DNA from: Zooshikella harenae | GTDB taxonomy: Bacteria > Pseudomonadota > Gammaproteobacteria > Pseudomonadales > Zooshikellaceae | DNA: 64,000 bases | Assembly: GCF_018837975.1 (NCBI RefSeq) | Contig: NZ_JAGSOY010000005.1 | Location: forward strand, 1 to 64,000 | Direction: 5' to 3' | In this document: positions 27,342 through 51,334 of the stretch, in pieces | How positions within the stretch are numbered: position 1 is the stretch's first letter | Layout of the letters: the number at the start of each line of letters is the position of its first letter | The notes under the pieces: model-generated | Databases searched by the model: none | What the model was told of the DNA's origin: nothing | What the model saw: the letters and a program-made list of their open reading frames with translations, nothing else | Translations under genes and position numbers: made by a program

Positions 27342-27830
27342 ATGTTCAAAAAAAATAATGGATTTACGCTGATTGAGTTGATGGTAACTATCGTAGTACT
27401 GGGAATTATCCTTGCTATTGCTGTCCCTTCTTTTGATTCTATGATTAAAAACTACCGATTACAGAGTGTTACTAATCAACTTATAGATAGCTTTAATTTA
27501 GCGAGAAATACTGCGCTTAGTCGAAATCAGGTAATAACAATTGAAGCTTCAGGGACTACAGAAAAAAAAGAATGGAATGGTGGCTGGGTTGTTAAAGTAG
27601 GAGCAGAAGAAATACGTGTTTTTGAAGGAGTGTCTGGTGTAGTTACTATAAATGCAACTAATACTGGTGCTGGTACCAATATTAAGGAAATAGCATTTTC
27701 TGGAAATGGCAGGCTAAGTGCACCTAATACGGGTGCTGAATTTACAGTAACAGATGATCGTTCAGGTGTAAAAAAACGTGTTGTGAATGTTAATTTATCT
27801 GGGCAAACCAGAATTACATTGAAAGATTGA
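27342..27830 (+). CDS. GspH/FimT-family minor pseudopilin, operon A
   Basis: A minor type IV pilin. The short basic leader MFKKNNG is followed by FTLIELMVTIVVLGIILAIA, giving prepilin peptidase cleavage after Gly7, Phe at +1 and Glu at +5. The rest is a GspH/FimT-like beta domain ending LSGQTRITLKD. At 162 residues it fits FimT/FimU. It is the first of five genes (fimT-like, pilV, pilW, pilX, pilY1) in the order known from Pseudomonas next to ispH. I cannot tell whether it corresponds to FimT or FimU. Confidence 0.88.
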   Translation: MFKKNNGFTLIELMVTIVVLGIILAIAVPSFDSMIKNYRLQSVTNQLIDSFNLARNTALSRNQVITIEASGTTEKKEWNGGWVVKVGAEEIRVFEGVSGVVTINATNTGAGTNIKEIAFSGNGRLSAPNTGAEFTVTDDRSGVKKRVVNVNLSGQTRITLKD

Positions 27831-27872
27831 GGATGCAAGCTGAAAGACTTACCGAATTTTGGGATAGGTAAA

Positions 27873-28499
27873 ATGAAAATGAAAAATAGAGGAATATCAT
27901 TAATCGAAGTTCTAATCACTATTTTAGTGATTGGCATTGGTTTGCTTGGGCTTGCAGGATTACAGTCAGTATCGATGAAAAATACCTATCAAGCATCACA
28001 ACGATCACAGGCTATGTGGTTAGCACAGGAGATAGCTGAAAGGATGCGTGCAAATCCGGCAGGAAAAGAAAAAGGCTATTATCTTACCGAAGGTAGTACA
28101 AGCAAATTTGCAGCTAGAACACCGAATAACTCTACAAAATGCGGAACAAAACCAACCAAGATATGCAGTGCATATTCTGATAGTGGAGATAAATTTGCTA
28201 CCGCTGATGCAGCATCAGATTGTACTACTGAAGAAATGGCGACGTTTGATGCATGGGAGATAATGTGTGGTCAGTCCTATGGAAATGCAGTGAAATCCTC
28301 TGTAATTGATACATTACCAGAACTATCAGCAGAGATTACTTGCTCTGATGGAGATACAGGGGATGGTGCGGATAAACCATGTTCTGCAGGCTCAGATATT
28401 GATATTGAACTAAGCTGGTCATCCACTGAAAGGCTTGGCGCAGATGCAGATACACCCGTTAAAGATAAGTCCACTGTTACTTTAAAAGTGAGAATTTAA
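27873..28499 (+). CDS. pilV: Minor pilin PilV, operon A
   Basis: A minor pilin that joins the priming complex of the type IV pilus. Leader MKMKNRG then ISLIEVLITILVIGIGLLGLAGLQ, with cleavage after Gly7. The LAQEIAERMRANPAG segment is diagnostic of PilV proteins. The globular part has cysteine pairs (CGTKPTKIC, CSDGDTGDGADKPC) that probably form disulfides in the periplasm. It is 208 residues. AGGTAAA lies just before the start codon. It ends one base before pilW. Confidence 0.88.
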   Translation: MKMKNRGISLIEVLITILVIGIGLLGLAGLQSVSMKNTYQASQRSQAMWLAQEIAERMRANPAGKEKGYYLTEGSTSKFAARTPNNSTKCGTKPTKICSAYSDSGDKFATADAASDCTTEEMATFDAWEIMCGQSYGNAVKSSVIDTLPELSAEITCSDGDTGDGADKPCSAGSDIDIELSWSSTERLGADADTPVKDKSTVTLKVRI

Positions 28500-28500
28500 T

Positions 28501-29286
28501 ATGTATTTAAATAAACAGAAAGGACTATCGCTTATTGAATTAATGATTGCGCTAGTTTTAGGGCTTTTTTTAGTAGCTGGAGTGATTCAAATATTTTTAG
28601 GGACATCGCAAACTTATCGATTAACAGGCGACATTGCTCGTGTCCAAGAAAATGCAAGATTCGCACTTGATATTCTAGCGCGTGATATTCGCATGGCGGG
28701 TTACAGTGATCCTGATAAAGGTGAAATTTTGCCTTTTTTTGCGGTGGCATCAGCTGATTGTCCTAATAGTGATGATAATAATTGTTCAACCAATGCTGTT
28801 GATGCAAATAACTCTGACATACTAGCAATAATGTTTGATCCAATAAATGATACAGACTGTATTGGAAACACAAGTGGTATTGATGAAGATGATGTAATTA
28901 TTAATCTCTATTATATTGACGAGGAAGACGGCATTGCGAGTTTATATTGTCGCGGTTGGAATAGAACAGATAATTCATGGGTCGGTGCTCAACAGCCACT
29001 TGTTGATGGTATAGAAAGAATGCAAATTCTTTATGGTGTAACTAATACATCAGGTGATGCTATACAAAAATATGTAAATAAAGACGATGTTGATGATTGG
29101 ACCAAAGTAAGAGCAGTACGTGTAGGCTTATTAGTTAGTGCTGGTTCTCCGTCAGGATCTGTAGAAAGAAAAACCAGAAGCTATACCGTTTTAGATAGTG
29201 GAAAGATTGATATCACGGATAATGTGAATCGATATATTTATACAACCACGATAGTTATAAATAACTCATCATCAGACTACATATAG
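28501..29286 (+). CDS. pilW: Minor pilin PilW, operon A
   Basis: A minor pilin of the priming complex. Leader MYLNKQKG then LSLIELMIALVLGLFLVAG, with Glu at +5. Family segments TYRLTGDIARVQENARFALDILARDIRMAGYS and the C-terminal RAVRVGLLVSAGS are clear. It is 261 residues. One base separates it from pilV and 12 from pilX, which implies translational coupling. Confidence 0.9.
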   Translation: MYLNKQKGLSLIELMIALVLGLFLVAGVIQIFLGTSQTYRLTGDIARVQENARFALDILARDIRMAGYSDPDKGEILPFFAVASADCPNSDDNNCSTNAVDANNSDILAIMFDPINDTDCIGNTSGIDEDDVIINLYYIDEEDGIASLYCRGWNRTDNSWVGAQQPLVDGIERMQILYGVTNTSGDAIQKYVNKDDVDDWTKVRAVRVGLLVSAGSPSGSVERKTRSYTVLDSGKIDITDNVNRYIYTTTIVINNSSSDYI

Positions 29287-29298
29287 GAGATATGAAAT

Positions 29299-29745
29299 AT
29301 GATGGAAAAGCAAAAAGGATCAGCATTAATTGTTAGTCTGATTATATTAATAGTGTTAACTGTTATTGGATTTTCTGCTTCAAGAACAACTGTTTTGGAA
29401 GAAAGAATGGCCTCTAACTCTCAAAATAAGCTTAAGGTCTACCAACTTGGTATTTCTGAATTAAATTCACAATTCGTTGATATGCGAAGTGATACCGATG
29501 AGCTAGTAAAAGCAATTAAACATAAAGGTGAGGCTCAAGACCAAACTGAAATTGTGAGTGATACTGGATCTACTGTTACTACACAATTAACCTATATGTC
29601 TGATGCAAGTATTCCTGATGGCGAAGACTTACCTGAAACAAAGGCTTACCGTTATCACCTTGATACAGATATCGTCGTCACCAATGCAAATGTGCAAACT
29701 AATCAAACTCTGGGTGTCCAGTACGAAATTCGAACTGGTGGATAG
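29299..29745 (+). CDS. pilX: Minor pilin assembly protein PilX, operon A
   Basis: A pilin-like protein required for type IV pilus assembly and adhesion, acting with PilY1. Leader MMEKQKG then SALIVSLIILIVLTVIGFSA. It lacks Glu at +5, as PilX/GspK-type tip proteins do. EERMASN after the helix is the family signature. At 148 residues it is typical. AGGAGATATGAAAT precedes the start ATG at 29299. pilY1 follows after 21 bp. Confidence 0.88.
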   Translation: MMEKQKGSALIVSLIILIVLTVIGFSASRTTVLEERMASNSQNKLKVYQLGISELNSQFVDMRSDTDELVKAIKHKGEAQDQTEIVSDTGSTVTTQLTYMSDASIPDGEDLPETKAYRYHLDTDIVVTNANVQTNQTLGVQYEIRTGG

Positions 29746-29766
29746 TAGTCATAAAGGATTTTAACA

Positions 29767-32976
<3,210 letters not shown>

Positions 32977-33020: not shown

Positions 33021-33060
33021 AATAGCCACTTCATTAGCATGGAGTGGCTATTTTGTTTTT
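33021..33060 (+). terminator. Terminator of minor-pilin operon A, overlapping the mnmH start
   Basis: AATAGCCACT (33021-33030), a 12-nt loop, AGTGGCTATT (33043-33052), then TTGTTTTT. The right arm contains the GGAG and GTG of the downstream gene. Confidence 0.8.
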
Positions 33061-34144
33061 ACTGGATGAAGCACAGTGGCGAACACTGTTATTAAACGAT
33101 ACTCCCTTACTTGATGTGCGTGCTCCAATTGAATTTCGAAAAGGAAGCTTTCCCTCTTCAGTCAATCTTCCCTTGCTGAATAATGAGCAGCGAAAGTTGG
33201 TAGGTACTTGTTATAAAGAGAAAGGTCAAAATGCAGCCATTACCTTAGGTTTTCAGCTTGCAACGCCTGAGATTAAACAAACAAGGATAAATAGTTGGTT
33301 GCAGTTTATTCGGCAAAATCCACATGGTGCTTTGTATTGTGCACGGGGAGGATTACGCTCAACAATCACTCAACAGTGGCTAGTGGAGTCTGGTATTGAT
33401 TATCCTCGAGTTGTCGGTGGTTATAAAACACTTAGGAGCTATCTATTAACGTACCTGGAAAGAGAAGACAATTATCCATCTTTTATTATTCTCTCAGGTT
33501 TGAGCTGTGTGGGTAAAACATTATTTTTGCGACAATTTTCTGCTCATCTGGATTTAGAGGGAATAGCAAAACACAGAGGTTCAGCCTTTGGTACTTTGAA
33601 TGTAGAGCAACCATCACAGGCTAGCTTTGAAAATGCATTGGCAGTCAAGCTGATGCAACTTAAAGAAAAGTATCGTTGTCCTATATTACTAGAGGATGAA
33701 AGTCATTTAATAGGTCGTTGTGCGCTACCAAAAACCTTGCAACGTGTTATGTGGCAATCATCTTATATTGAGTTAACAGCATCGATTGAAGAGCGTATCG
33801 AAAATGCTTTTCAGGATTATATTGAAAACAGCCCTTATCCACTTGAATTAGTTGCACAACACTTAATGTCTGCTTTGACTAAAATAAAACGTCGCTTGGC
33901 TGGAGAACGTTATTCAACGTTAACTCAAATGGTGCAAGAAGGTATGGCAAAGTATCGAAGTATGAATGATGGATCTTTACTTCGTTGTGTCATAAAAATG
34001 ATGCTAATTGAGTATTATGATCCTATGTATTATTACCATCAGCAAAAATATAAAACACAGCCCTTGTTCAAAGGTAATGCTCAAGAGGTGAGTGATTGGG
34101 TGGTAGAAAAAGTGCAAAAAGAATCAAAGACTTTGACTTGTTAA
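33053..34144 (+). CDS. mnmH: tRNA 2-selenouridine synthase MnmH (SelU)
   Basis: It replaces the 2-thio group of wobble uridine in some tRNAs by selenium, using selenophosphate. The N-terminal rhodanese domain has LLDVRAPIEF and the active-site loop YCARGGLRS with catalytic Cys96. The C-terminal P-loop domain begins GLSCVGKT and contains the family segment LLEDESHLIGRCALP. It is about 363 residues, as usual. Start choice: TTG 33053 has GGAG eight bases upstream. GTG 33044, in frame, would have no room for a ribosome site. Either start lies inside the terminator hairpin of pilY1. It is followed directly by the SelD fusion, which supplies its selenium donor. Confidence 0.92.
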   Translation: MFLLDEAQWRTLLLNDTPLLDVRAPIEFRKGSFPSSVNLPLLNNEQRKLVGTCYKEKGQNAAITLGFQLATPEIKQTRINSWLQFIRQNPHGALYCARGGLRSTITQQWLVESGIDYPRVVGGYKTLRSYLLTYLEREDNYPSFIILSGLSCVGKTLFLRQFSAHLDLEGIAKHRGSAFGTLNVEQPSQASFENALAVKLMQLKEKYRCPILLEDESHLIGRCALPKTLQRVMWQSSYIELTASIEERIENAFQDYIENSPYPLELVAQHLMSALTKIKRRLAGERYSTLTQMVQEGMAKYRSMNDGSLLRCVIKMMLIEYYDPMYYYHQQKYKTQPLFKGNAQEVSDWVVEKVQKESKTLTC

Positions 34145-34164
34145 GGAAAGGAATTGTTATTAGT

Positions 34165-36360
34165 TTGAATACACCTCAAACAGTTTATGCAAAAGACATT
34201 GTATTAGTGGGTGGGGGACACAGTCATGTGTTGTTTATCCGACGCTGGAAAATGAAACCTCTACCTGATACCCGTTTGACCTTAATCTCACCACAGGTCT
34301 ATACCCCATATTCAGGCATGCTTCCTGGCCTTATTGCTGAACACTATACCTTTGAGCAAACGCATATAGATTTGCGGAGGTTGTGCCAGTGGGCAGGTGT
34401 GCGCTTTATTCAGGATCGAGTGGTAGACATAGAACCTGATACTCAACATTTATCTTTAAAAAATTATCCTCAGCTTAATTATGATGTTCTCTCGTTAGAT
34501 ATCGGCTTAACACCTGACTTGAGCATTCCTGGAGCAACTGAGCATACTATACCTGTAAAGCCTATAAGTGATTTTTTTGCTCAATGGCAGTCTTTAAAGC
34601 AGCGAGTTACAGAAGATAAGCAATCACACTACACTATCGGTATTGTTGGAGGAGGTGCTGGGAGTATAGAACTGGCTTTAGCTATTTCGTACAGTTTGAA
34701 GTCTGTAAATGCTCACTATACTATTCATCTTTTTACTGCAAGCGCGCATATTTTGCCTGACTATTTGCCTAAAACCAGGCAGCATGTGAGGCATAAATTA
34801 TTTCAGGCTCATGTCAACATCCATGAAAACTTCAAGGTGAGTAATGTATGTAGCCATGGGATTTATAATCAAAATAATGAAGAAGTGCTTCTGGACAAAA
34901 TTTTTTGGTGTACTCATGGTCAAGGTGCTGACTGGCTAAAAAACACGTTACTTGACATATCAGAACAAGGCTTTGTCCTTGTGAAAAATACATTGCAGGC
35001 GTTGAAGTTTGATAACATTTTTGCAGCAGGAGATATTGCACACTTAACACCCGAGGCAAATCCAAAAGCGGGCGTATATGCAGTACGCATGGCACCAATA
35101 CTGTTTCATAATATTTGTGCACTTTTAGCGAATAGATCATTAAAGTTATTTAAACCTCAAAAGCATTTCTTAAGCCTGCTAGCGTGTGGAGAGAAAGACG
35201 CTATTGGTGAACGAGTACCATTTTCCTTTCATGGTCCTTGGGTGTGGCGTTGGAAAGACTTCCTGGATCGTCAGTTTATAGAAGCGTTTCAGCAACTGTC
35301 TCTTGCTGAAATGTCAAGTCTGACCAAGTTCTATCGTTTTAAAAATTCTAGTCCTGTGATGCGTTGCGATGGCTGTGGTGCCAAAATTAGTCAGGATATA
35401 CTTGCAGAAACGCTAGAAACAATAGGCGTTAATTATCAAGCAGAAGATGCGGCAGTAATTCCTTGGCGAGAAGCGAAATTTTTACTGCAGACGGTTGATC
35501 AATTAAGAGCTTTTATTGATGATCCCTGGTTGTTTGGGCGAATAGCTATAGTACATGCATTAAGTGATATTTATGCGATGGGAGGCAAGCCCCATAGTGT
35601 ACAGGTAGCGATCACCTTACCCTATCAACAACAGAACTGTTTAAAGCGAGAGCTGCTATTACTCATGCAGGGCATTCAGTATGAATTAGATGAAGCCGAG
35701 TGCGCTTTGGTTGGAGGACATACAGCAGAAGGTGCAGAATTAAGTGTAGCGATCACGGCCAATGGACGACGAGGGCTGGGTAAATTATGGCAAAAAACAG
35801 GAGCCAAGCCAGGTGATGTATTAATCCTTACCAAACCCCTCAGCACTGGAGTGATACTTGCTGCTAACAAAGCAGCTCAAGCCAAGGGTAACTGGGTTGA
35901 AGAAATGTTAGCAATGATGCTCCTCAGTAATCGAGCAGCTGTGCCTATAGTTAAAAAATTCCAACCTCACGCTGTAACTGATATTACTGGCTTTGGGTTG
36001 CTAGGACATTTGTTAGAAATGCTGAAACCTGAGCAGTTAAGTGCTGAGTTGGATCTGGGGCAGTTACCTGTCTTAGAGGGGGCAACAGACTTATTTCGTC
36101 ATGGCTGGCAAAGCACTCTCCAAGCTGCGAATGAAAATAGCCGTCATTATTTACATAAAGCAAATCAATGGCTGAAAGAGGCTCACTATCCTTTATTATT
36201 TGACCCACAAACGTCTGGTGGGTTATTGGTTGCTGTTAGTGAGGATGTTGCTTATGACTGCCTTAATGGGCTGCAAATAGACTATCCACAAGCAGCGATT
36301 GTAGGGAAAATTCTTCCAAAGGAAGAACAAACGACAACAACAGTTTATCTAAAAAAATAG
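34165..36360 (+). CDS. selD: NADH-dehydrogenase-like domain fused to selenophosphate synthase SelD
   Basis: A two-domain protein. Residues 1-370 are a pyridine-nucleotide-disulfide oxidoreductase of the NDH-2 type, with FAD loop DIVLVGGGHSHV and NAD loop IGIVGGGAGSIELA. From about residue 400 onward it is selenide, water dikinase. Its active site MRCDGCGAKIS keeps the catalytic cysteine and lysine and has Ala where E. coli SelD has its second, dispensable cysteine. DAAVIPW and LVGGHTAEGAELS follow. There is no UGA codon at the active site, so it is a cysteine form. Start uncertain: TTG 34165 (MNTPQTVYAKD) is preferred, with AAGGAAAGGA upstream. Longer readings overlap mnmH. The redox domain presumably aids selenide supply (inference). 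Confidence 0.92.
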   Translation: MNTPQTVYAKDIVLVGGGHSHVLFIRRWKMKPLPDTRLTLISPQVYTPYSGMLPGLIAEHYTFEQTHIDLRRLCQWAGVRFIQDRVVDIEPDTQHLSLKNYPQLNYDVLSLDIGLTPDLSIPGATEHTIPVKPISDFFAQWQSLKQRVTEDKQSHYTIGIVGGGAGSIELALAISYSLKSVNAHYTIHLFTASAHILPDYLPKTRQHVRHKLFQAHVNIHENFKVSNVCSHGIYNQNNEEVLLDKIFWCTHGQGADWLKNTLLDISEQGFVLVKNTLQALKFDNIFAAGDIAHLTPEANPKAGVYAVRMAPILFHNICALLANRSLKLFKPQKHFLSLLACGEKDAIGERVPFSFHGPWVWRWKDFLDRQFIEAFQQLSLAEMSSLTKFYRFKNSSPVMRCDGCGAKISQDILAETLETIGVNYQAEDAAVIPWREAKFLLQTVDQLRAFIDDPWLFGRIAIVHALSDIYAMGGKPHSVQVAITLPYQQQNCLKRELLLLMQGIQYELDEAECALVGGHTAEGAELSVAITANGRRGLGKLWQKTGAKPGDVLILTKPLSTGVILAANKAAQAKGNWVEEMLAMMLLSNRAAVPIVKKFQPHAVTDITGFGLLGHLLEMLKPEQLSAELDLGQLPVLEGATDLFRHGWQSTLQAANENSRHYLHKANQWLKEAHYPLLFDPQTSGGLLVAVSEDVAYDCLNGLQIDYPQAAIVGKILPKEEQTTTTVYLKK

Positions 36361-36832: not shown

Positions 36833-37264
36833 ATGAGCAAAATTAAAGGGTTTACGTTAATAGAGTTGATGGTGACAGTAGCCATATTAGGAATTTTGGC
36901 GGCTATTGGAATGCCATCGATGGTGGACATGATGCGCCGTGAAAAGGCTGCAGAAGGCACCAATAGGATATTAAGCGCACTAAAAGAGCTTAAAACAGAA
37001 GCAATGACAAGACGCAGGGAGTATATAATTATAATAAGAAACAAGGAAATAAATATTGTTAATAATGGTAGTAGAAAAACAGTTGAGCTACCAAATGAAT
37101 TAACCTATCAGGTGACACCAAGCAGGGGATTTGGTTTTAATAAAGATGGATTTTTAACTCCCTCCAGTCTGAATAATGTTGAAATTAATATCAATTCAAC
37201 GCATTCAGGTATTGCTACAAGGACTATTTCAATTAATCGTTCTGGTCAAATAATTAAAAATTAA
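36833..37264 (+). CDS. GspH/FimT-family minor pseudopilin, operon B
   Basis: A second FimT/FimU-like minor pilin. Leader MSKIKG then FTLIELMVTVAILGILAAIGMPS, with Glu at +5 and cleavage after Gly6. It continues with a short GspH-type beta domain ending ISINRSGQIIKN. It is 143 residues. It shares order and position with its counterpart at 27342, but the globular parts differ considerably. It is the first of five tightly packed genes. Confidence 0.87.
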   Translation: MSKIKGFTLIELMVTVAILGILAAIGMPSMVDMMRREKAAEGTNRILSALKELKTEAMTRRREYIIIIRNKEINIVNNGSRKTVELPNELTYQVTPSRGFGFNKDGFLTPSSLNNVEININSTHSGIATRTISINRSGQIIKN

Positions 37265-37270
37265 TTAAGG

Positions 37271-37657
37271 ATGATGATGAAAACGAAAATTAAGAATCAA
37301 GCTGGTATGAGCATGATTGAGGTATTAGTTACTATTGTAATTACCAGTGTTGCATTATTGGGATTGGCCGCACTACTGACTAAATCTATGCAAAGTACTT
37401 TCGATGCATCTCAACGTACTACAGCAGTGTGGGCAGCAAATGACTTTGTTGAACGGTATAGAATAGGAATTAGTTCAGATAAAGATGTAATTAAAAGTCA
37501 AGTAGAAAGTGAACACGACTTAGTGAATAAATTAGCAGGCCAAAATGTAAGGGCAATAGGTCGTGAAGAATATATGCAAATAACGTGGAATTGTACTTCT
37601 TGTAAAAATAATGTAAATCAACAAAATGTTAGACTTCTTTTAAATAACAAAGAATGA
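37271..37657 (+). CDS. pilV: PilV-like minor pilin, operon B
   Basis: Leader MMMKTKIKNQAG then MSMIEVLVTIVITSVALLGLAALLTKSMQSTFDASQRT, which parallels the operon A PilV (LLGLAGLQSVSMKNTYQASQRS). It is only 128 residues against 208, so the globular domain is reduced. Two CxxC-type cysteines (CTSCK) remain near the C-terminus. Its stop overlaps the start region of pilW by 4 bp, indicating coupled translation. Confidence 0.82.
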   Translation: MMMKTKIKNQAGMSMIEVLVTIVITSVALLGLAALLTKSMQSTFDASQRTTAVWAANDFVERYRIGISSDKDVIKSQVESEHDLVNKLAGQNVRAIGREEYMQITWNCTSCKNNVNQQNVRLLLNNKE

Positions 37658-38511
37658 TGGAATTAATAATGAAATTTCAACGAGGAGTTACATTAATTGA
37701 GTTGATGATAGCATTAGCACTCAGTGTCATGCTATTAATGGGAATAACTAAAATATTTAGTTTAGGGAAGCAGACTTTAATGAGTGCAGAAGGCCAAATG
37801 CAACATGAAGAGGCTGGCCGACTTGGATTAAGCTATATTCGTCAAGCAATTCGTAATGCGCATTATGTTCCATTTGATGATAATAATGTTCCTATTGAAC
37901 TATCACAATTACCAGGATTTCCTCATAATCAAGCTGACTGTGAGGACAAAGATTTAAATCCTAATCATTGTAATACACTAAATCAAGACGCAAATGATAG
38001 CTTGACGGTAAGTTACATTTATCAAAATGAAGAACAATTTAGTTGTGCTCAAGAATTCAGAAACACTGATCCAATTAGAATAGCGGTGTCTTTTTTTATA
38101 GATAGTGATGAAGATGTCCTCAAGTGTAAGGCATATTATTATGACCAAAGTATAAATGGATACGTAGCTAGAGGTAATACAGTAGAACTGGTCAAAAATA
38201 TAATAGGATTAAAGCTGGCATATTACTATGAAGATGGCGTTAATACTGGATTAATTAACACCATTAATAAGGATAGTCCAGCTGGTATGGCTGTTGATAC
38301 ACGTTGGGAAAAGATAAACGGCGTAAAAATTGGTGTAGTGGTTACCTCATCAGATAGAGGATTAAACCCATCAGCTAGCGTTAATGTATTTGGCAATCGC
38401 TTAGCTGATGATAGTGATAAATTTAATATTCCTGATAGGTATAATAATAAAGTAAATAAAGTTTATATTACTACAGTTCAAGCAATAAATTATGGAGCTA
38501 AGCGACTATAA
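37654..38511 (+). CDS. pilW: PilW-like minor pilin, operon B
   Basis: Leader MMELIMKFQRG then VTLIELMIALALSVMLLMGITKIF. The following GQMQHEEAGRLGLSYIRQAIRNAHY matches the PilW pattern seen in operon A. The globular domain has several cysteines (DCEDKD, HCNT, SCAQ, LKCK) that may form disulfides. It is 285 residues. ATG 37669 (MKFQRG) would give the more usual leader length. The stop overlaps the pilX start by one base. Confidence 0.85.
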   Translation: MMELIMKFQRGVTLIELMIALALSVMLLMGITKIFSLGKQTLMSAEGQMQHEEAGRLGLSYIRQAIRNAHYVPFDDNNVPIELSQLPGFPHNQADCEDKDLNPNHCNTLNQDANDSLTVSYIYQNEEQFSCAQEFRNTDPIRIAVSFFIDSDEDVLKCKAYYYDQSINGYVARGNTVELVKNIIGLKLAYYYEDGVNTGLINTINKDSPAGMAVDTRWEKINGVKIGVVVTSSDRGLNPSASVNVFGNRLADDSDKFNIPDRYNNKVNKVYITTVQAINYGAKRL

Positions 38512-39065
38512 TGCTGAAATATTCTCTAGCGAAACAAGAAGGTGCATTGTTAGTAGTTGCCTTAATTATTATGTTTTTGCTAAGTGCAGCTGGAATGTCT
38601 GCGTTTTACTTTTCTCAGACTTCTGAAAAAGCAACAGCTTATAATTACTATAAAACAATCACGGAGCAAAATACTCTATCGGAAGTTTATGAGCAAAAGT
38701 ATTGGCTAGCAGATGATGATATAACAATGCAAAGGGTTAAAAAATTTATTCCAAGTTTTGATGTAAAGCAAGTAGATGGAATAAATTTTGTTAAAATAAA
38801 AGGTGTGGTACTTGATGAAAGTCTTTGTGAAGATTCAGGTGGCGGTCATATAAACTGCTTTCAAAATTATTTGCGTTATGAAAAGAAAGTGCCTGCTTTA
38901 AATACAGGTAATCAGATCAATGTTGGAGATGGCTCTTCTGACTCGTATCATATGTTTAGTTTAAGGGTAAGCGGATTCCTCGCTAGCAACACTAATCCTG
39001 ATAAAGTTGATATTTATGGCGAGGAAGAGCAACAAGCAGGATTTGTAATAAAAAGACTAGACTAA
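38511..39065 (+). CDS. pilX: PilX-like minor pilin, operon B
   Basis: Leader MLKYSLAKQEG then ALLVVALIIMFLLSAAGMSAFYFS, without Glu at +5, as in PilX. It is 184 residues, 36 longer than the operon A copy. One cysteine pair is visible (LCEDSGGGHINC). It lies immediately before the second pilY1, the same partner order as in operon A. Similarity to PilX is confined to the N-terminal helix, so the name rests on position and architecture. Confidence 0.75.
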   Translation: MLKYSLAKQEGALLVVALIIMFLLSAAGMSAFYFSQTSEKATAYNYYKTITEQNTLSEVYEQKYWLADDDITMQRVKKFIPSFDVKQVDGINFVKIKGVVLDESLCEDSGGGHINCFQNYLRYEKKVPALNTGNQINVGDGSSDSYHMFSLRVSGFLASNTNPDKVDIYGEEEQQAGFVIKRLD

Positions 39066-39083
39066 TTAGTGGTTTCTCAAAAA

Positions 39084-42000
39084 ATGAAAAATAAAATTGC
39101 GTTATTTGGAGCTAGCTTGCTTGCTTTGAGTGTTTCGTTTACTTCATACTCTGACGACTTAGAGCTATACAAGCCAATAAAGATATCTGGTGAAAGAAAG
39201 TCAAATATTCTTTTTGTGCTGGATGACTCAGGGAGTATGAAAGGTTATTTTATGCCTCAATTAAAAAGAGCTACAAAGAATCTTATAAATAAACAAAAAA
39301 ATGGTGAAATTAATATTGGTTTAATGAATTTTAATAATGGAAAACTCGTTGTTCCAGTGAGAAAGTTAACAGACAGTCATCGAAGAGATTTAATTAAGGG
39401 AGTTAATAGCTTAAATGCAGATGGCAGCACTCCTCTTTCGGAAACATTGTATGAAGCCTACTTATACTTTTATGGTGAAGAACCAAGGTTTGAAAATTAT
39501 CTAGACAAAGATGATGAAAATTATGAAGTAAGAAGAAGTTTTCTTGATGCAAGTGGAGAATATAAGTCGCCTATTTCAAAAGATGAAGCGCCTGCTTGTG
39601 GAGTAACAGATAGTATCATTCTATTTACTGATGGTGAACCAAGTGAGTCACAGCGGGCAGATAACTCTATTGATTCTTTAATTTCTGGAAAAACTTTACC
39701 TGATAGCTTGGATAATCCATGTAAAGATGGTTATAACTGTTTGGATGAGCTTGCTTGGTTTTTGGGCCATAATGACAGTAATCCGTACTTTGATGGTGAT
39801 CAGATTATTAAAGTATACACTGTTGGCTTTGACCTAGACAGTTTACCTAAATATCGCGCTGACAAGGCAATAAAACTATTGAAGAGTACGGCTGAAAACT
39901 CAAAAGGGATATATACTTCTGTAACTAATGAAGAAGAAATAGAGGTTGCTTTTACAAAAGCTGTTGAAGCGACAAATGAAAATACCTCTACAGTCTCTTC
40001 TTCATCAATTACTGTAAATCAGTTTTCAAAAGCTAGCCATGAGAATTATACATTTTACGCAATGTTTAAGCCTTCTACGAGCGGTCGATGGGAAGGTAAT
40101 ATAAAAAAATATCAGTTAGCTTCTCGGTTTGTAGATGATAGTGGTAATGTTATTCCTGATAGTGAACTAACAACATTTAAAGAGATGAAAGAGAGGAAGT
40201 ACAAGGTTAAGCTTTTCCTTGAAGATAAAAAAAATAAAAATATTCTTGATGCTACTAATACTGTAAAAGCTGAAACTTTAGATTTATGGAATCCCATCGA
40301 TGATAATTATGATGGAGGAAAAGTAAATGCTGGTGGCATAAGAAGTGCAATGAAAAATAACAAAAATAAAGAATGGAGTTTTCTTACCTATGATGAGAGT
40401 TCTGTAGAAAAAAACTTAACAGCTATTGATATAGATACTATCGAATGTACTCTGTTTGATGTTATTGAAGGGGAAAAATGTAATAAAATTAAAAGATTTT
40501 TAGTGGGTAAAGATGAAAGTGGTAATAGTTCTAATTGGTTAGGAGATATTATCCATAGTACCCCAACAGTAATAACGTATAGATCATCATACAGTGATAC
40601 TCCATCTTTGAAAGGTAATAAAAAAGAGGGTGATGCATATTTATTTGCAGGTAGTAATGATGGCTATGTGCACGCATTTGATGTGCAAACGGGTACGCAA
40701 AAATTCTCATTTATTCCTGAAGAATTTTATCGAAATATTCGTGGTTATGTAGAAAATAACCCAGGTGAAAAACTATATGGCTTTGATGGCCCGATCACCG
40801 CTGATTATGACTACGAATTAAAGTGTAAAGAAAAAGGTACTGATAAGGATTGCGATAAAGGTACTGATGTTAGTAATAGAGACTATGTGAAAACAATTAA
40901 GTATGCCAATTTATATGTTGGTATGCGAAGAGGAGGGACTTCCTATTACTCACTTGATGTTACTGATATTGATCATCCAAAATTTAGATGGGTTATCAGA
41001 GGAAGTGCTTTAGGGGTAAAAGAGCGTTATGGAAGAGAGATAGAAAAAAAAGATGAAGGTTACGTTTTTAAAGGAAAAGATACTGAAGTTGATAGTTTAT
41101 TGACATATAAAAATGATTTTTCTGAATTGGCGCAAACATGGTCTAAACCAATTGTAACATATATTAAAAGTGATGCTGGAAAGAAAATTAAAGTAATAAT
41201 TTTTTCAGGAGGATATGATCCTGTCAATGATGATCAAAATTACACTGAAAATTATGGCACAACTAGCAAAGGTAATGCTGTTTTTATTGTAAATGCAGAG
41301 ACAGGTGAATTAATAAAAAAAGCTACTGGTGAAACAGATGGTGGGGATATAAGTTTAATAGTAGATGGAATGAATTACAGTTTGCCTGGAGGTGTTGCCG
41401 TTGTTGATAAAAATGGTGATAACTTTGTAGATGATATATTCACTGCTGATGTACGTGGGAATATATTTCGTATTCATTTACCAGGGGGTAGTGTTAACAA
41501 AATAAAAGCAAAAAAAATAGCTAGTTTGGGTCACAAAGATAGACATACACGTTTTTTTACTGTACCACGAATAGCATTCGTAAAAGATCCTAATAAAATA
41601 CTAAAGTATTCTATTGCAATCGGATCAGGCAACAGAGCAAACCCACGTGACAAGTCGATGAATAATGGACTTTTTGTGATATTTCAGGATATTAACTACG
41701 ATTCAGTTAACGAAGTTAAATATGGTGACTTGAAAGATATATCTAGCTTTGGCGGTAAGCAAGTTATAAGTGATAAGTTAGAAAAAAAACTAGGTGATGC
41801 TAAAAGTAAAATTAGTACAGAAAAAACAAAAGTTGAAAGTGTTAAGCAAGCAAAAAAACGCTTCGATAAAAATGTGACGATATGGTTTGATGTTAAAAGA
41901 CAGCTTATGTCGATTGACGAAAAGACTTACTTGAAGTCAATTGAACAATATAAAAAACTTAAAGGTGATCACCTTGCTCTTATTGACTCGGAGATAACCA

Positions 42001-43586
42001 TTTTAAATAATAGAAATAAATTCATTGATAATGAAATCCCTAAGCTGAATGCTGAGATAGTTACAAAAAGGGAAGAGATTAAAAGTATGGGGGAGGGGAG
42101 AAAAAAAGAAGAGGGTGAAGAGTACATTAACGAGCGCAAAAATTTAATTGCTAAGTATGAAAATGAGCAAAAGGATATTCCCTCAAAACTTGCTATAAAA
42201 AATAAGAATCGTGTTGAAATTGAAACGGATTATAAGGGTAAGATAAGTAGTGCTAATTCAAAAATTTCCAGCTTAAAAAATAAAAAAGATAAGTTGTTAG
42301 CACTTAAGAGTCAAGTTGCTAAAATAAGCGTAATTAATCAAAACGTTGTTTTGGGTTCGGTGATCACTTCCGCTCATCAAGATAATATTAAAAAGCTAAT
42401 AGATGTTACAGGTAAAAAATTATCAGACTTATCGCTGGGTGAGATAGTCGATAAACTCGGTAAGGTTGCAAAAATAATTAAGGGGAAAAAAGCTTTTGAA
42501 AATGTTGACAAGGCTGTTGAGAGCTTACCAGATAACTTTGATAAAGATGACTTGAGTGGCTTATTACCTGATGAAGATGTCGAAAAACTTGCAAGTAATC
42601 TTAAGTTATCTGACGGCGTTAAATTGAAGAAAGATGTGCTTGAAAAGTATCTAAAAGATAATACCTCTGAAAAAGAGTCTTATAATAGTAAAATATCGAG
42701 CATTTCTGAATTGATGAGCGTAAAAGATGAAATAGAAATACGAAGTGAATATTGGAAACATCTTTTCAACCTAAGTACAAAGCTAGACTCGAATCAAAAA
42801 GAAATTGACTTTTCTGAATTCTCAAATGCTTTTATTGATAGAGGTTATTTTACTGACGTTGAATCTACGGCTCTTAAAACTGCAGGACTAATCGATCGTG
42901 TGAAGGAAGCATATTCCCAAGTTATCAAAAAGTATGAACAACAATACTCTAATGCTGAGAAGGAATATAATACGTTATACACAGATAATAAACTTAAGAT
43001 AAATAAGAACGAGGTGGCTGAAGTTCAAAAAGCAATCTTTGCTAGTGGTGGCTGGAAAAAGATGTTCGTTCAAGGTTGGAAAATTTTGTCTCCAGTGACT
43101 ATAAGAGATCATCAAGTTCGCTTCACAGCGTTTACTCCTTCAAATGATGACTCTATGGAAACTTTATGTGGTGCTGATTTAGGGCAATCTTTGGAGTATA
43201 GTTATGGTTTAAAAACGTTGACGACTAAAGATCCTATAAAGCTTGGAGCAGGTTTTTATGAAAGTCCTCAGCTATTTCGTACTTACTATGTTGTAGGTAA
43301 AAAGAATGAATTTTGGAAGCCTGTTGATTTAGATGGTGATGGTAAGATTAGCGAAAGAGAACGTAGGGCTATTAAGAAACCTATGGACTGCCTGTTTGGT
43401 GCAGCTGGTGCTGTTGAAGAATGTAAAGATATCGATGTAAGTATGAATATGGTCTATTGGAAAAACTGGTTAAAAACTGAAGGTAGCTATTCTAGAGTAT
43501 TTGAGGATGCTGATGACAGCGCTAGTAGTTCTGCTGATTCTGACTCTGATGCTGGTGGTAAGTCTTCAGATCCTTCTGGTAGCTAA
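39084..43586 (+). CDS. pilY1: PilY1-type tip adhesin with large coiled-coil insertion and EF-hand, operon B
   Basis: Signal peptide MKNKIALFGASLLALSVSF, then a VWA domain with FVLDDSGSM and LFTDGEPS. The beta-propeller has AGSNDGYVHAFD, LYGFDGPI, YYSLDVTDIDHP and calcium loop D775-KNGDNFV-D783. Between about residues 885 and 1320 lies a Lys/Glu/Asp/Ser-rich, largely helical insertion with long coiled-coil stretches. In operon A this place holds only about 85 residues. The propeller then resumes (GWKILSPVTIRDHQVRFTAFTPS). Near the C-terminus is a canonical EF-hand loop, D1415-LDGDGKISER-E1426, and the protein ends in a Ser/Asp tail. It is 1500 residues from ATG 39084; an in-frame GTG at 39069 is possible. 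Confidence 0.9.
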   Translation: MKNKIALFGASLLALSVSFTSYSDDLELYKPIKISGERKSNILFVLDDSGSMKGYFMPQLKRATKNLINKQKNGEINIGLMNFNNGKLVVPVRKLTDSHRRDLIKGVNSLNADGSTPLSETLYEAYLYFYGEEPRFENYLDKDDENYEVRRSFLDASGEYKSPISKDEAPACGVTDSIILFTDGEPSESQRADNSIDSLISGKTLPDSLDNPCKDGYNCLDELAWFLGHNDSNPYFDGDQIIKVYTVGFDLDSLPKYRADKAIKLLKSTAENSKGIYTSVTNEEEIEVAFTKAVEATNENTSTVSSSSITVNQFSKASHENYTFYAMFKPSTSGRWEGNIKKYQLASRFVDDSGNVIPDSELTTFKEMKERKYKVKLFLEDKKNKNILDATNTVKAETLDLWNPIDDNYDGGKVNAGGIRSAMKNNKNKEWSFLTYDESSVEKNLTAIDIDTIECTLFDVIEGEKCNKIKRFLVGKDESGNSSNWLGDIIHSTPTVITYRSSYSDTPSLKGNKKEGDAYLFAGSNDGYVHAFDVQTGTQKFSFIPEEFYRNIRGYVENNPGEKLYGFDGPITADYDYELKCKEKGTDKDCDKGTDVSNRDYVKTIKYANLYVGMRRGGTSYYSLDVTDIDHPKFRWVIRGSALGVKERYGREIEKKDEGYVFKGKDTEVDSLLTYKNDFSELAQTWSKPIVTYIKSDAGKKIKVIIFSGGYDPVNDDQNYTENYGTTSKGNAVFIVNAETGELIKKATGETDGGDISLIVDGMNYSLPGGVAVVDKNGDNFVDDIFTADVRGNIFRIHLPGGSVNKIKAKKIASLGHKDRHTRFFTVPRIAFVKDPNKILKYSIAIGSGNRANPRDKSMNNGLFVIFQDINYDSVNEVKYGDLKDISSFGGKQVISDKLEKKLGDAKSKISTEKTKVESVKQAKKRFDKNVTIWFDVKRQLMSIDEKTYLKSIEQYKKLKGDHLALIDSEITILNNRNKFIDNEIPKLNAEIVTKREEIKSMGEGRKKEEGEEYINERKNLIAKYENEQKDIPSKLAIKNKNRVEIETDYKGKISSANSKISSLKNKKDKLLALKSQVAKISVINQNVVLGSVITSAHQDNIKKLIDVTGKKLSDLSLGEIVDKLGKVAKIIKGKKAFENVDKAVESLPDNFDKDDLSGLLPDEDVEKLASNLKLSDGVKLKKDVLEKYLKDNTSEKESYNSKISSISELMSVKDEIEIRSEYWKHLFNLSTKLDSNQKEIDFSEFSNAFIDRGYFTDVESTALKTAGLIDRVKEAYSQVIKKYEQQYSNAEKEYNTLYTDNKLKINKNEVAEVQKAIFASGGWKKMFVQGWKILSPVTIRDHQVRFTAFTPSNDDSMETLCGADLGQSLEYSYGLKTLTTKDPIKLGAGFYESPQLFRTYYVVGKKNEFWKPVDLDGDGKISERERRAIKKPMDCLFGAAGAVEECKDIDVSMNMVYWKNWLKTEGSYSRVFEDADDSASSSADSDSDAGGKSSDPSGS

Positions 43587-43608: not shown

Positions 43609-43635
43609 AAAAAGCCCCTTTTAGGGGCTTTTTTT
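43609..43635. terminator. Bidirectional terminator between pilY1 (operon B) and pilE
   Basis: AAAAAGCCCC, loop TTTTA, GGGGCTTTTTTT. It lies between convergent genes with A and T tracts on either side. The right T-run touches the pilE stop codon. Confidence 0.9.
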
Positions 43636-44056
43636 AATTCCAGTTTGGACTTTTTGTGTCATCACTGCTTAATGAAATTTCATCATCTCCTGTTCCAAAG
43701 GTATTTTTTCCATCAGTAGGATCAGCAAAAATAGTAATAGTATTCCTATTTTTTCTAATTCCAATGCTATATTTATTATCAACTGTTAAAAAGTTATCTG
43801 GATAACAAAGGCTATTATTGCATTTGTCTGGGCCTGCGCCGTTGGGCTTTAGCCTTTCAGCATATCGCAGATGTTGTGTGAAATACTTTTGCTGTACTTG
43901 CATTAGCTCCATCAATTTAGATTTTGCTTCTGACTTATTGCCTCGTTGAATATATTCCCGGTAACTGGGTATAGCGATTGCCGCCAAAATAGCAATTATT
44001 GCTACTACAATCATAAGTTCTATAAGCGAAAAACCCGTTGTATTTTTTTTCATCAC
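43634..44056 (-). CDS. pilE: PilE-type pilin
   Basis: A type IV pilin-like protein with leader MMKKNTTG then [38 protein letters not shown], which is the PilE minor-pilin signature. The C-terminal half contains a cysteine pair (KCNNSLC). It is 140 residues. It is placed at the end of minor-pilin operon B but on the opposite strand. In Pseudomonas pilE lies in the same cluster. Because it has its own promoter it can be expressed independently of both operons. Other short type IV pilins look similar, so PilE against a generic minor pilin is a judgement from context. Confidence 0.85.
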
Positions 44057-48675: not shown

Positions 48676-49290
48676 TTAAATGGTAAAGTGCTGTGCGTTT
48701 GTTAATGTTTTTAGTTGCTGTTTTGTTTTTTTCTGTATTGCTTGCACTATATAACGATAAGGTCCACCAGCCTCTACGGCATCAAAGGGATAGCAGGTTA
48801 CTAAAATAAGTTGATTAAAGCTATTATCAAGCACTAATTTTTCGGTACGGGTATCAGCAATTTTAGTTTTTATGACTTGATAATGAATTTTTTGCTGGCG
48901 AGCTTCAAGTGTTAATACGTCTCCTGTAGTTAGTTCTGCCAGCGGGCTAAAGTGAGTGTCACGATGACCACTAATCACCACAGTACCAGGATTTCCAGGT
49001 AAAACTGAGGCGGAAAGATGTCCTGGCGCAAAGGCCAACTCTCGCCCAGTAGCGCCAGATAAGACAATCATGGGTTTTTGGTGTGGCAAATAGAGTCGTG
49101 CTATAGGCCATGTATCCGCCCACTGCCATGGTTTTTGAACCTGTTTACCTTGTTCGCTGTTTTGCCAGGCTTGCTCAAGAAGAAATTGAGCGAGTGTTGC
49201 TTTTCCATATATGTAGCCAGCATGCAGTGTATGCCACCCAGAGCCTAACAACAGAATAAGACCTAAGTACTTGAAAAATTTATATTTCAT
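48676..49290 (-). CDS. Class GN (marine proteobacterial) sortase
   Basis: A membrane-anchored transpeptidase that cleaves a C-terminal sorting signal. An N-terminal membrane segment (about 5-23) is followed by the sortase fold with the catalytic triad His109 (SGHRDTHF), Cys166 (LVTCYPF) and Arg179 (PYRY). It is 204 residues. Its start overlaps the end of the VIT/VWA substrate gene by 11 bp, so the two are co-translated. This is the usual pair in the proteobacterial dedicated sortase system, where one sortase serves one target. The matching two-component genes are at 57.7-60.6 kb. Confidence 0.93.
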   Translation of the reverse strand: MKYKFFKYLGLILLLGSGWHTLHAGYIYGKATLAQFLLEQAWQNSEQGKQVQKPWQWADTWPIARLYLPHQKPMIVLSGATGRELAFAPGHLSASVLPGNPGTVVISGHRDTHFSPLAELTTGDVLTLEARQQKIHYQVIKTKIADTRTEKLVLDNSFNQLILVTCYPFDAVEAGGPYRYIVQAIQKKTKQQLKTLTNAQHFTI

Positions 49291-51334
49291 GATGTTTCCT
49301 CATCGTACTCCAGCATAAACAAAGCAAACCGAGTAATGCTGAGATAAAAGCCATTAGCAGATGCCATGGCGCAGTGGTGGCTGTTTGAGGAAAACCTGTT
49401 GTTTGATAGGCATTACCATGGGGCAGTGCATTAGAAATGTTAGTGGATTGAGTTTGTTGATGAGCCGGCTTTACAATTTGCTCTGCAACAGCAACGAAGC
49501 TGGTATAGCGTGAGGCAAGTTGGTGTGTTAGCGCAATTTGCGTAATCTGTTCTGGTAGTTCGCTGTTATTTGTTTGAATATACTCATCTTGAAGCATTTC
49601 AATTTGTTGTCTTGCCCATAATTTACCAATACCGTTTGCAGGCTGATGAAGCTGTGTTTGTGGAATGACTTGCTCCCAAGGCTGCCTACCCATTTTGGCT
49701 TTAATCACTAGCGAAGATTTAAGTGACTCTAGTTTCTTTGTGATAATTAATGGCTGACCTTGGTATAAATCTGAGATTGTTTGTTGTTGACCATCTGGCC
49801 AGGTTACAGTGATTCCGGAGGCAATTGGGTTTTGAATTTGATTAAATAAATGCGTGATACGTTGTTCAACTGTATTCATATGAGGAACGTATGTAAATGT
49901 ACCTCGTCCAAACTCAGCTGATTTACGCATAAAATAGCTATTAGGCGCAGACCCAATGCCTATAGTAAATAAGCGGCGTGGGGCTAAATTTTGATGTATA
50001 AATTGAAGTATTTCTACTTCGTTCCCTACGCTACCATCGGTTATAAAAATAATTTGACTGAGTTCGACGTCTGTAAGTGGCAATGTGACAGCTGCTTGTA
50101 AAGCAGGCAGAATTTCTGTTCCTCCATTTGCGGCTAAGTCATCAATAAACTTAATTGCATCAGCCATACTTAACATGGATACTCGCTGAGAGCGTTCAAA
50201 AAGGGTTCTTGTTGTTGAATCAAACGCAATAATATTAAACCGATCATTCGGGTTTAATTGTCGTAATGCAAATTGTAAGGCGGTTTTTGCTTGTACTATG
50301 GAGCTTCCAGCCATTGAACCAGAAGTATCAATGATAAAAATTTGTTCTTTGCTTAGCGGCGTTTTATTTTTTTTCATTTTAGGTGGTGCAACCATTAACA
50401 GGCCGTAGGTTTCATTATGAACCTCTTCAGTGAAAAAGGTTGCCTGAGGTTGGAAGGCCGTTTGTGGTTGCCATGTTAACTCTAAATCTCGGTCAAAGAT
50501 AACCGCATCATTTTTCAGTTGGACTATGTATTGATGGTCATTCTTATTGATTTTGAGTTTATGAGTTGAGCTGTTCAAACTGACTAATGGTAAACCTGCA
50601 TTTATATTAATAGTTAAGTCTACTTTTAAAGGTGTTTGAGGGGCAGGGCGTTGTGGTAATGGTGGTAGTGATGATGTCTGTGGCGAGGAGAGAAAGTTTG
50701 TATCTGTCTTAGTGGTTTGCGCGCTTTTGTATCTTGGTGTGATCGTCATTGGAAATCGCAACTGGTACTGATTACTAATGTACGGCACTGATTGCATATA
50801 AGAAATTTTAACTTCTATGGTTTCTTCGGGGGCAATATTGGCGACTTGTGTTGTGAACAAATTGGGTCGATCTTGTGATAAGAGTGAGGCTTGTTGACCA
50901 GCAGCTTTTGCTGTCGTGTAAATGTGTTTTGCTTCCTCTTTGCGCTTAATTAAGCCTTTGATCGTTCGGTTACCAATGGTCATTTCCATAGCATAAACTG
51001 CAGCATTTTCGGGTAAAGGAAAAGCATAAACACCTTCTGCCCATTCTGAACCACTGTTTTTAAAGCGCTGAGTGACAGTGACAGCAGCAATTATACCGTT
51101 TACATCAATGTTTACATGATTGTCTAAGCGTAGTGCATTGATGTAGGTGGTTTTATTTTTGAGAAGCAAACTGCCAGAAGTGACTTCCTCTGGACTTTGG
51201 TATATCTCGTGGTAATGATTGGTGGTACTGGCTTTAGCAGCACTAAAGCCTAACAGGCTTAAAAAGCAAAATAGCCACAGACCAATGGCCAACCACCCTA
51301 GATATTGATTAAGTGCTGCGAAATCGTCTTTCAT
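49280..51334 (-). CDS. Marine proteobacterial sortase target protein (VIT and VWA domains)
   Basis: The dedicated substrate of the adjacent sortase. An N-terminal membrane or signal segment (about residues 13-33) is followed by a VIT domain (65-190, with VTVTQRFKNSGSEWAEGVYAFPLPENAAV). A VWA domain has the metal site IIDTSGSM near 338. The C-terminal sorting signal consists of FPQTAT (648-653), a hydrophobic helix and the basic tail MRKHHEI. The typical motif in this family is LPQTA, so Phe replaces Leu here. It is 684 residues. The start ATG has GAAGGAG upstream. The architecture resembles inter-alpha-trypsin inhibitor heavy chains; a role in surface binding is likely but unproven. Confidence 0.93.
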   Translation of the reverse strand: MKDDFAALNQYLGWLAIGLWLFCFLSLLGFSAAKASTTNHYHEIYQSPEEVTSGSLLLKNKTTYINALRLDNHVNIDVNGIIAAVTVTQRFKNSGSEWAEGVYAFPLPENAAVYAMEMTIGNRTIKGLIKRKEEAKHIYTTAKAAGQQASLLSQDRPNLFTTQVANIAPEETIEVKISYMQSVPYISNQYQLRFPMTITPRYKSAQTTKTDTNFLSSPQTSSLPPLPQRPAPQTPLKVDLTININAGLPLVSLNSSTHKLKINKNDHQYIVQLKNDAVIFDRDLELTWQPQTAFQPQATFFTEEVHNETYGLLMVAPPKMKKNKTPLSKEQIFIIDTSGSMAGSSIVQAKTALQFALRQLNPNDRFNIIAFDSTTRTLFERSQRVSMLSMADAIKFIDDLAANGGTEILPALQAAVTLPLTDVELSQIIFITDGSVGNEVEILQFIHQNLAPRRLFTIGIGSAPNSYFMRKSAEFGRGTFTYVPHMNTVEQRITHLFNQIQNPIASGITVTWPDGQQQTISDLYQGQPLIITKKLESLKSSLVIKAKMGRQPWEQVIPQTQLHQPANGIGKLWARQQIEMLQDEYIQTNNSELPEQITQIALTHQLASRYTSFVAVAEQIVKPAHQQTQSTNISNALPHGNAYQTTGFPQTATTAPWHLLMAFISALLGLLCLCWSTMRKHHEI

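Follow-up and report, generated by a model that had tools for sequence, protein, structure and literature searches.

A long, predicted-helical insert in the propeller of a second PilY1-type pilus-tip adhesin of Zooshikella harenae

Type IVa pili bear at their tip the adhesin PilY1, which has also been proposed to sense surfaces; can the PilY1 propeller carry a long extra element, and what might such an element do at the pilus tip? These questions are raised by the first 64,000 nucleotides of contig NZ_JAGSOY010000005.1 of the gammaproteobacterium Zooshikella harenae (hereafter, the window), which hold two minor-pilin/PilY1 operons, A (27342-32976) and B (36833-43586). The PilY1 protein of operon B (PilY1-B) has a propeller interrupted by a stretch several times longer than the equivalent one in its paralogue PilY1-A. 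Current descriptions place the lineage-specific variation of PilY1 in the N-terminal half and regard the propeller as conserved (PMC13190605, PMC10374093). Our analysis indicates that PilY1-B is probably functional, and a real but rare variant of this known adhesin family.

The gene pilY1-B (39084..43586, plus strand) is an unbroken open reading frame (ORF) running from an ATG at 39084 to a stop codon ending at 43586, with a GTG at 39069 as a possible other start. It encodes a secreted PilY1-type protein of 1500 amino acids that begins with a signal sequence. A vWA domain core follows at residues 41-125 (39204..39458; PF00092, E 4.7e-9); its metal ion-dependent adhesion site motif, read from the sequence, is DDSGSM (residues 47-52), and the DxSxS pattern, T116 and D183 are also kept in PilY1-A. 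The first part of the propeller, identified by alignment and by the strands of an AlphaFold2 model, spans residues 487-869 (40542..41690) and ends with the strand FVIFQD; its predicted local distance difference test (pLDDT) values are mostly 85-98 from about residue 690 onwards. It contains a Ca2+-binding-type loop, DKNGDNFVD (residues 775-783; 41406..41432), which aligns with the invariant Asp columns of PilY1 homologues and whose Ca2+ role is taken from the published P. aeruginosa PilY1. The second part (residues 1322-1464; 43047..43475) runs from GGWKKM to the C-terminal strand VYWKNW, with G-W, Cys and Trp columns aligned in more than 90% of homologues. The PilY1 propeller family PF05567 was not reported when the whole protein was scanned, and reached 34.9 bits (cut-off 28.1) when residues 470-869 were scanned alone. 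The top Foldseek match of the predicted structure was 3HX6, the P. aeruginosa PilY1 propeller (E 5e-14). Since vWA domain, propeller, Ca2+ loop and minor-pilin operon are all present, PilY1-B is, judging by sequence, a member of the PilY1/PilC type IVa pilus tip adhesins, in their vWA-bearing subgroup, and the family assignment made in the initial annotation holds. P. aeruginosa PilY1 shares with it the fold, the Ca2+ loop, the vWA N-terminus and the minor-pilin operon, but lacks a long insert in the blade linker; the match to 3HX6 covers the propeller part only.

The insert was delimited by the propeller strands ending in FVIFQD and starting with GGWKKM, and by the equivalent strands in PilY1-A. 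Measured in this way, the linker comprises 452 residues in PilY1-B (870-1321; 41691..43046), predicted to be helical, against 74 in PilY1-A, a net excess of about 380; in ordinary PilY1 proteins it is a short stretch such as DLYDATANLVQ...GW. The large insert proposed in the initial annotation was thus recovered, whereas the figure of about 85 residues given there for the paralogue becomes 74 with equivalent landmarks. Lys makes up 16.6% of the insert, Glu 9.3% and Pro 0.9%, and Cys is absent. A re-implemented COILS scan with the MTK matrix, for which GCN4 served as the positive control and PilY1-A as the negative one, gave coiled-coil probabilities above 0.5 at residues 895-926, 970-1035, 1048-1080 and 1267-1313 of PilY1-B and no coiled-coil segment in PilY1-A; residues ~1085-1260 are not coiled-coil-like. 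Within the insert, 177 residues exceeded 0.5, whereas 200 composition shuffles averaged 29.6 and never reached the observed value, which rules out composition alone as the source of the signal. The four segments with heptad repeats, which go beyond the shuffles, are helices in the structural model too, so that the earlier description of a Lys/Glu-rich, coiled-coil-like region inside the propeller is upheld by composition, scan and model alike.

In the AlphaFold2 model of PilY1-B, built on a 62-row alignment, the insert is all-helical, with main helices of 49, 59, 75, 39 and 34 residues; the propeller is modelled confidently on either side and left undisturbed. Three helices assigned by DSSP (893-941, 946-1004 and 1011-1085; 41760..42338) would form an outgoing arm, which carries the first three coiled-coil segments. 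They are followed by a middle or tip region of short helices (residues 1086-1196; 42339..42671; pLDDT about 30-65) without Pfam or PDB sequence match, and then by a putative return arm (helices 1197-1235 and 1269-1302; 42672..43022) that includes the fourth segment, with pLDDT 85-89 around residues 1269-1300. The helices adjoining the propeller strands have pLDDT of about 84-93, and the distal part of the insert about 30-70. Because the base is modelled well and the distal part poorly, the rod emerging from the adhesin that had been suggested for this protein is likely, but not proven: its base stands, while its extent and tip do not follow from the model. It is plausible, on this model, that the insert is an arm projecting from the propeller, probably as a hairpin of antiparallel helices that becomes less ordered distally. 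The strand order in the model would make it the C-D loop of the blade that follows the Ca2+ blade, and it probably shares a face with the Ca2+ loop.

How rare is such an insert? We searched 392 genomes of the order with a profile of the flanks and measured the C-terminal halves; 105 PilY1 proteins had both flanks. The linker has 18-74 residues in 100 of them. The five exceptions are PilY1-B itself (454 by this measure), two Pseudomonas proteins (383 each), and one protein each from the genomes G073 (137) and G053 (106). In samples of the class and phylum, searched with a second profile and tallied without the window's own proteins, 88 proteins were measurable among the best-scoring matches listed, while 9 matches had no measurable right flank; 87 of the 88 have linkers of 31-73 residues, and the remaining one is a Pseudomonas protein already known (385). 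On the tree, the five insert carriers require four changes, at least three of them forced by strongly supported branches. Long inserts at this site are therefore rare in PilY1; that no standard PilY1 has one is, however, too strong a statement in view of the two Pseudomonas carriers. The linker of G073 is helical and lies at the same propeller site. The PilY1 of G053 (L132:6180-10130, minus strand) has, in addition, a 275-residue coiled coil with a Trp-rich middle (WANWETHWRASRRAKYAEWK) at another propeller loop, between FSGGYD and GRAVFVV. Long ORFs of relatives (~1570-1660 aa) were also considered as insert carriers and ruled out: their linkers are normal, so their extra length lies elsewhere, probably at the N-terminus.

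The closest positional counterparts were found in P. nicosulfuronedens LAM1902 and P. citronellolis LMG 18378, whose PilY1 proteins carry a long, predicted-helical insert of 383 residues at exactly the site of PilY1-B. A pattern-based scan of 84,980 named species, which distant carriers could escape, found exactly these two carriers, and the insert is present in 2 of 25 genomes within the genus. The inserts of the two species align over 383 residues without gaps at 73% identity, the propeller parts are 86-88% identical, and the first 500 residues are 77% identical with 59 gap columns, partly reflecting an unaligned N-terminal ORF extension. The ratio of nonsynonymous to synonymous rates (dN/dS) of the insert, 0.14, is close to the 0.12 of the vWA half, with 0.08 in the propeller; these values are rough, since synonymous sites are near saturation. 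The low ratio of the insert and its absence of indels suggest that purifying selection can act on inserts at this site. The model of the Pseudomonas insert is helical, with pLDDT mostly 70-94 and poor values near model residues 475-512 and 626-644. In contrast to the Lys/Glu-rich insert of PilY1-B, the Pseudomonas insert is rich in Ala, Gln, Ser and Thr, and its gene sits in the canonical ileS-lspA-fkpB-ispH pil locus. A single clade uniting the propellers of the window and Pseudomonas carriers was not rejected by the approximately unbiased (AU) test (p 0.34), with the window on a long branch. Searches of the literature by title and abstract (PilY1 with coiled-coil; PilY1 with citronellolis) returned nothing on the Pseudomonas insert, which is apparently undescribed.

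Given these results, it seems fairly likely that PilY1-B is the adhesin of an alternative pilus-tip complex and bears a helical arm altering the shape or extent of its contact surface. The proteins FimU, PilV, PilW, PilX and PilY1-B would form a second type IVa tip complex beside the standard one, served by the same machine. PilY1/minor-pilin complexes prime pilus extension and remain at the tip (PMC7541494), and the operon-B complex would prime and cap pili as other PilY1 complexes do. In PilY1-B, a propeller loop usually of 30-75 residues would have been expanded to a long all-helical, coiled-coil-like arm. A bulky fusion is known to fail, as superfolder GFP on PilY1.3 obstructs function (PMC7541494); the arm would be tolerated because it is slim, leaves the propeller intact and could pass the secretin. 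For lineage-specific adhesion, it could add to the reach of the tip or offer a new surface for contact, by analogy with the finger of A. baumannii ComC, also a lineage-specific insertion in a PilY1-family adhesin encoded in an exchangeable cassette (PMC10374093). Deletion of that finger from the vWA domain impairs adhesion, twitching and DNA uptake (PMC10374093). The likeness is an analogy only: the ComC finger has ~90 residues, lies in the vWA domain, has a Tyr-rich motif and is not reported to be a coiled coil, whereas the PilY1-B insert lies in the propeller. An arm of this kind thus has precedents, in concept in the ComC finger and in position in the two Pseudomonas inserts.

Several observations weigh against this proposal. 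Searches with the window insert in the 392 genomes of the order, plasmids, phages, PDB and Pfam gave no homologues, or weak chance matches between coiled coils, and blastp found no sequence similarity between it and the Pseudomonas insert; likewise, the whole of PilY1-B as query over GTDB contigs yielded no confirmed relative. The low distal pLDDT bears on the hairpin, the length of the rod and its tip. In addition, the M. xanthus model places the propeller pilus-proximal and the vWA domain at the extreme tip (PMC7541494), so that the arm may not reach a surface first. Alternatively, the insert might be an expansion, flexible or without function, of a loop that tolerates it, its Lys-rich low-complexity sequence scoring as helical, or part of a decaying accessory gene. 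The lack of homologues and the low distal pLDDT would fit such an expansion, as would the AT-rich gene (GC 34% outside the insert and 32% inside) and the very long branch of the PilY1-B propeller in the tree (2.86 changes per site, a much greater divergence than that of PilY1-A). We nevertheless consider it unlikely, given an ORF unbroken over 1500 codons, a coiled-coil content far above that of shuffles with little Pro and regular heptads, and the low dN/dS and lack of indels of the Pseudomonas analogue.

Two further explanations accept a functional arm and differ in its task. It could be a mechanical element, a lever or spring through which tension at the tip is transmitted or sensed, or which influences the Ca2+ blade next to it. 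Coiled-coil-like helices would suit this role, as would the modelled position of the insert on the blade after the Ca2+ blade, and PilY1 propeller mechanics are Ca2+-dependent (PMC11891296). Published work, however, assigns force sensitivity to the N-terminal vWA and the integrin-binding regions and not to this blade (PMC9210963, PMC11891296), and nearly all surveyed PilY1 proteins do without such an arm; force sensing by the PilY1-B arm, also raised in the initial annotation, is at most a possibility, and a mechanical role as its main purpose appears quite improbable. We see a similarly slim chance, if anything slimmer, that the arm serves assembly, matching PilY1-B to the minor pilins of its own set or to the secretin/alignment complex and so keeping two tip complexes separate. 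The genome has two complete minor-pilin sets, the protein in the PilX position is distinct, with 184 aa in operon B and 148 aa for its operon-A counterpart, and the M. xanthus model puts the propeller close to the minor pilins (PMC7541494), but in Pseudomonas the insert-bearing PilY1 is that of the canonical locus and not of an added second set.

The propeller, a part of the pilus tip thought to be fixed, is customised as well, as shown by the long predicted-helical inserts found at particular loops, one of them common to two Pseudomonas species at the canonical locus. M. xanthus, with PilY1.1-1.3, likewise has several minor-pilin/PilY1 clusters that give alternative tip complexes (PMC7541494, PMC13190605); the variation reported there is N-terminal and the propeller is described as conserved, unlike in PilY1-B. 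A broader idea, that the PilY1 propeller is a platform on which long helical arms dock, acquired more than once at two of its loops and forming an unrecognised class of pilus-tip "whiskers" that set reach, specificity or force response, is conceivable but doubtful. In-frame deletion of the insert would be a direct test of the tip arm with the adhesin retained.

The genomic setting is consistent with an exchangeable second set. Operon A, with pilY1-A (29767..32976, plus strand), follows murJ-ribF-ileS-lspA-fkpB-ispH (murJ by Pfam, the others by size, position and order only) and is in the canonical position. In operon B, all on the plus strand, pilY1-B is preceded by genes for a FimU/FimT-like minor pilin (36833..37264; N_methyl in Pfam, GspH-like in NCBIfam), a PilV-like one (37271..37657; TIGR02523 above cut-off), a PilW-like one (37654..38511; weak PF16074, N_methyl) and the protein in the PilX position (38511..39065; assigned by position only, without family match). 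The genes that flank the operon-B slot are 83-97% identical between the window and the sister species G001, but the selD-phoH slot of G001 holds another cassette of fimU, pilV, pilW, pilX, a PilY1 gene and pilE (L134; G001:C11, about 51.7-59.8 kb), whose PilY1 has 1661 residues, belongs to another class and has no vWA match. This slot therefore behaves as a tip-cassette exchange site, matching the replaced cassette reported in Acinetobacter (PMC10374093). Between the two species PilY1-A is 60% identical and IleS 94%. PilY1-A is the nearest protein to PilY1-B in full-length comparison; grouping their C-terminal halves, as expected from a local duplication, was marginally disfavoured (p-AU 0.07). 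A third, more distant PilY1 is encoded on contig C179 of the same genome.

Convergent with pilY1-B lies a PilE-like pilin gene (43634..44056, minus strand; identified from its translation), 39% identical to the pilE of the sister-species cassette, which instead follows pilY1 and shares its strand. Between operons A and B (33044-36360) lie two genes, one rhodanese-like (selU-type) and one for an oxidoreductase-SelD fusion; no full-length match to this fusion was found in the genomes G002-G004 of the family. At the 3' end of pilY1-A (32874-32964), 15 perfect AGGCAC hexamers encode a (Gly-Thr)n tail, an array likely to be length-variable in frame. Further downstream (48676-51334, minus strand), the window encodes a VIT-VWA protein whose domain make-up resembles marine proteobacterial sortase targets, and the small gene adjoining it may, by its position only, encode its sortase.

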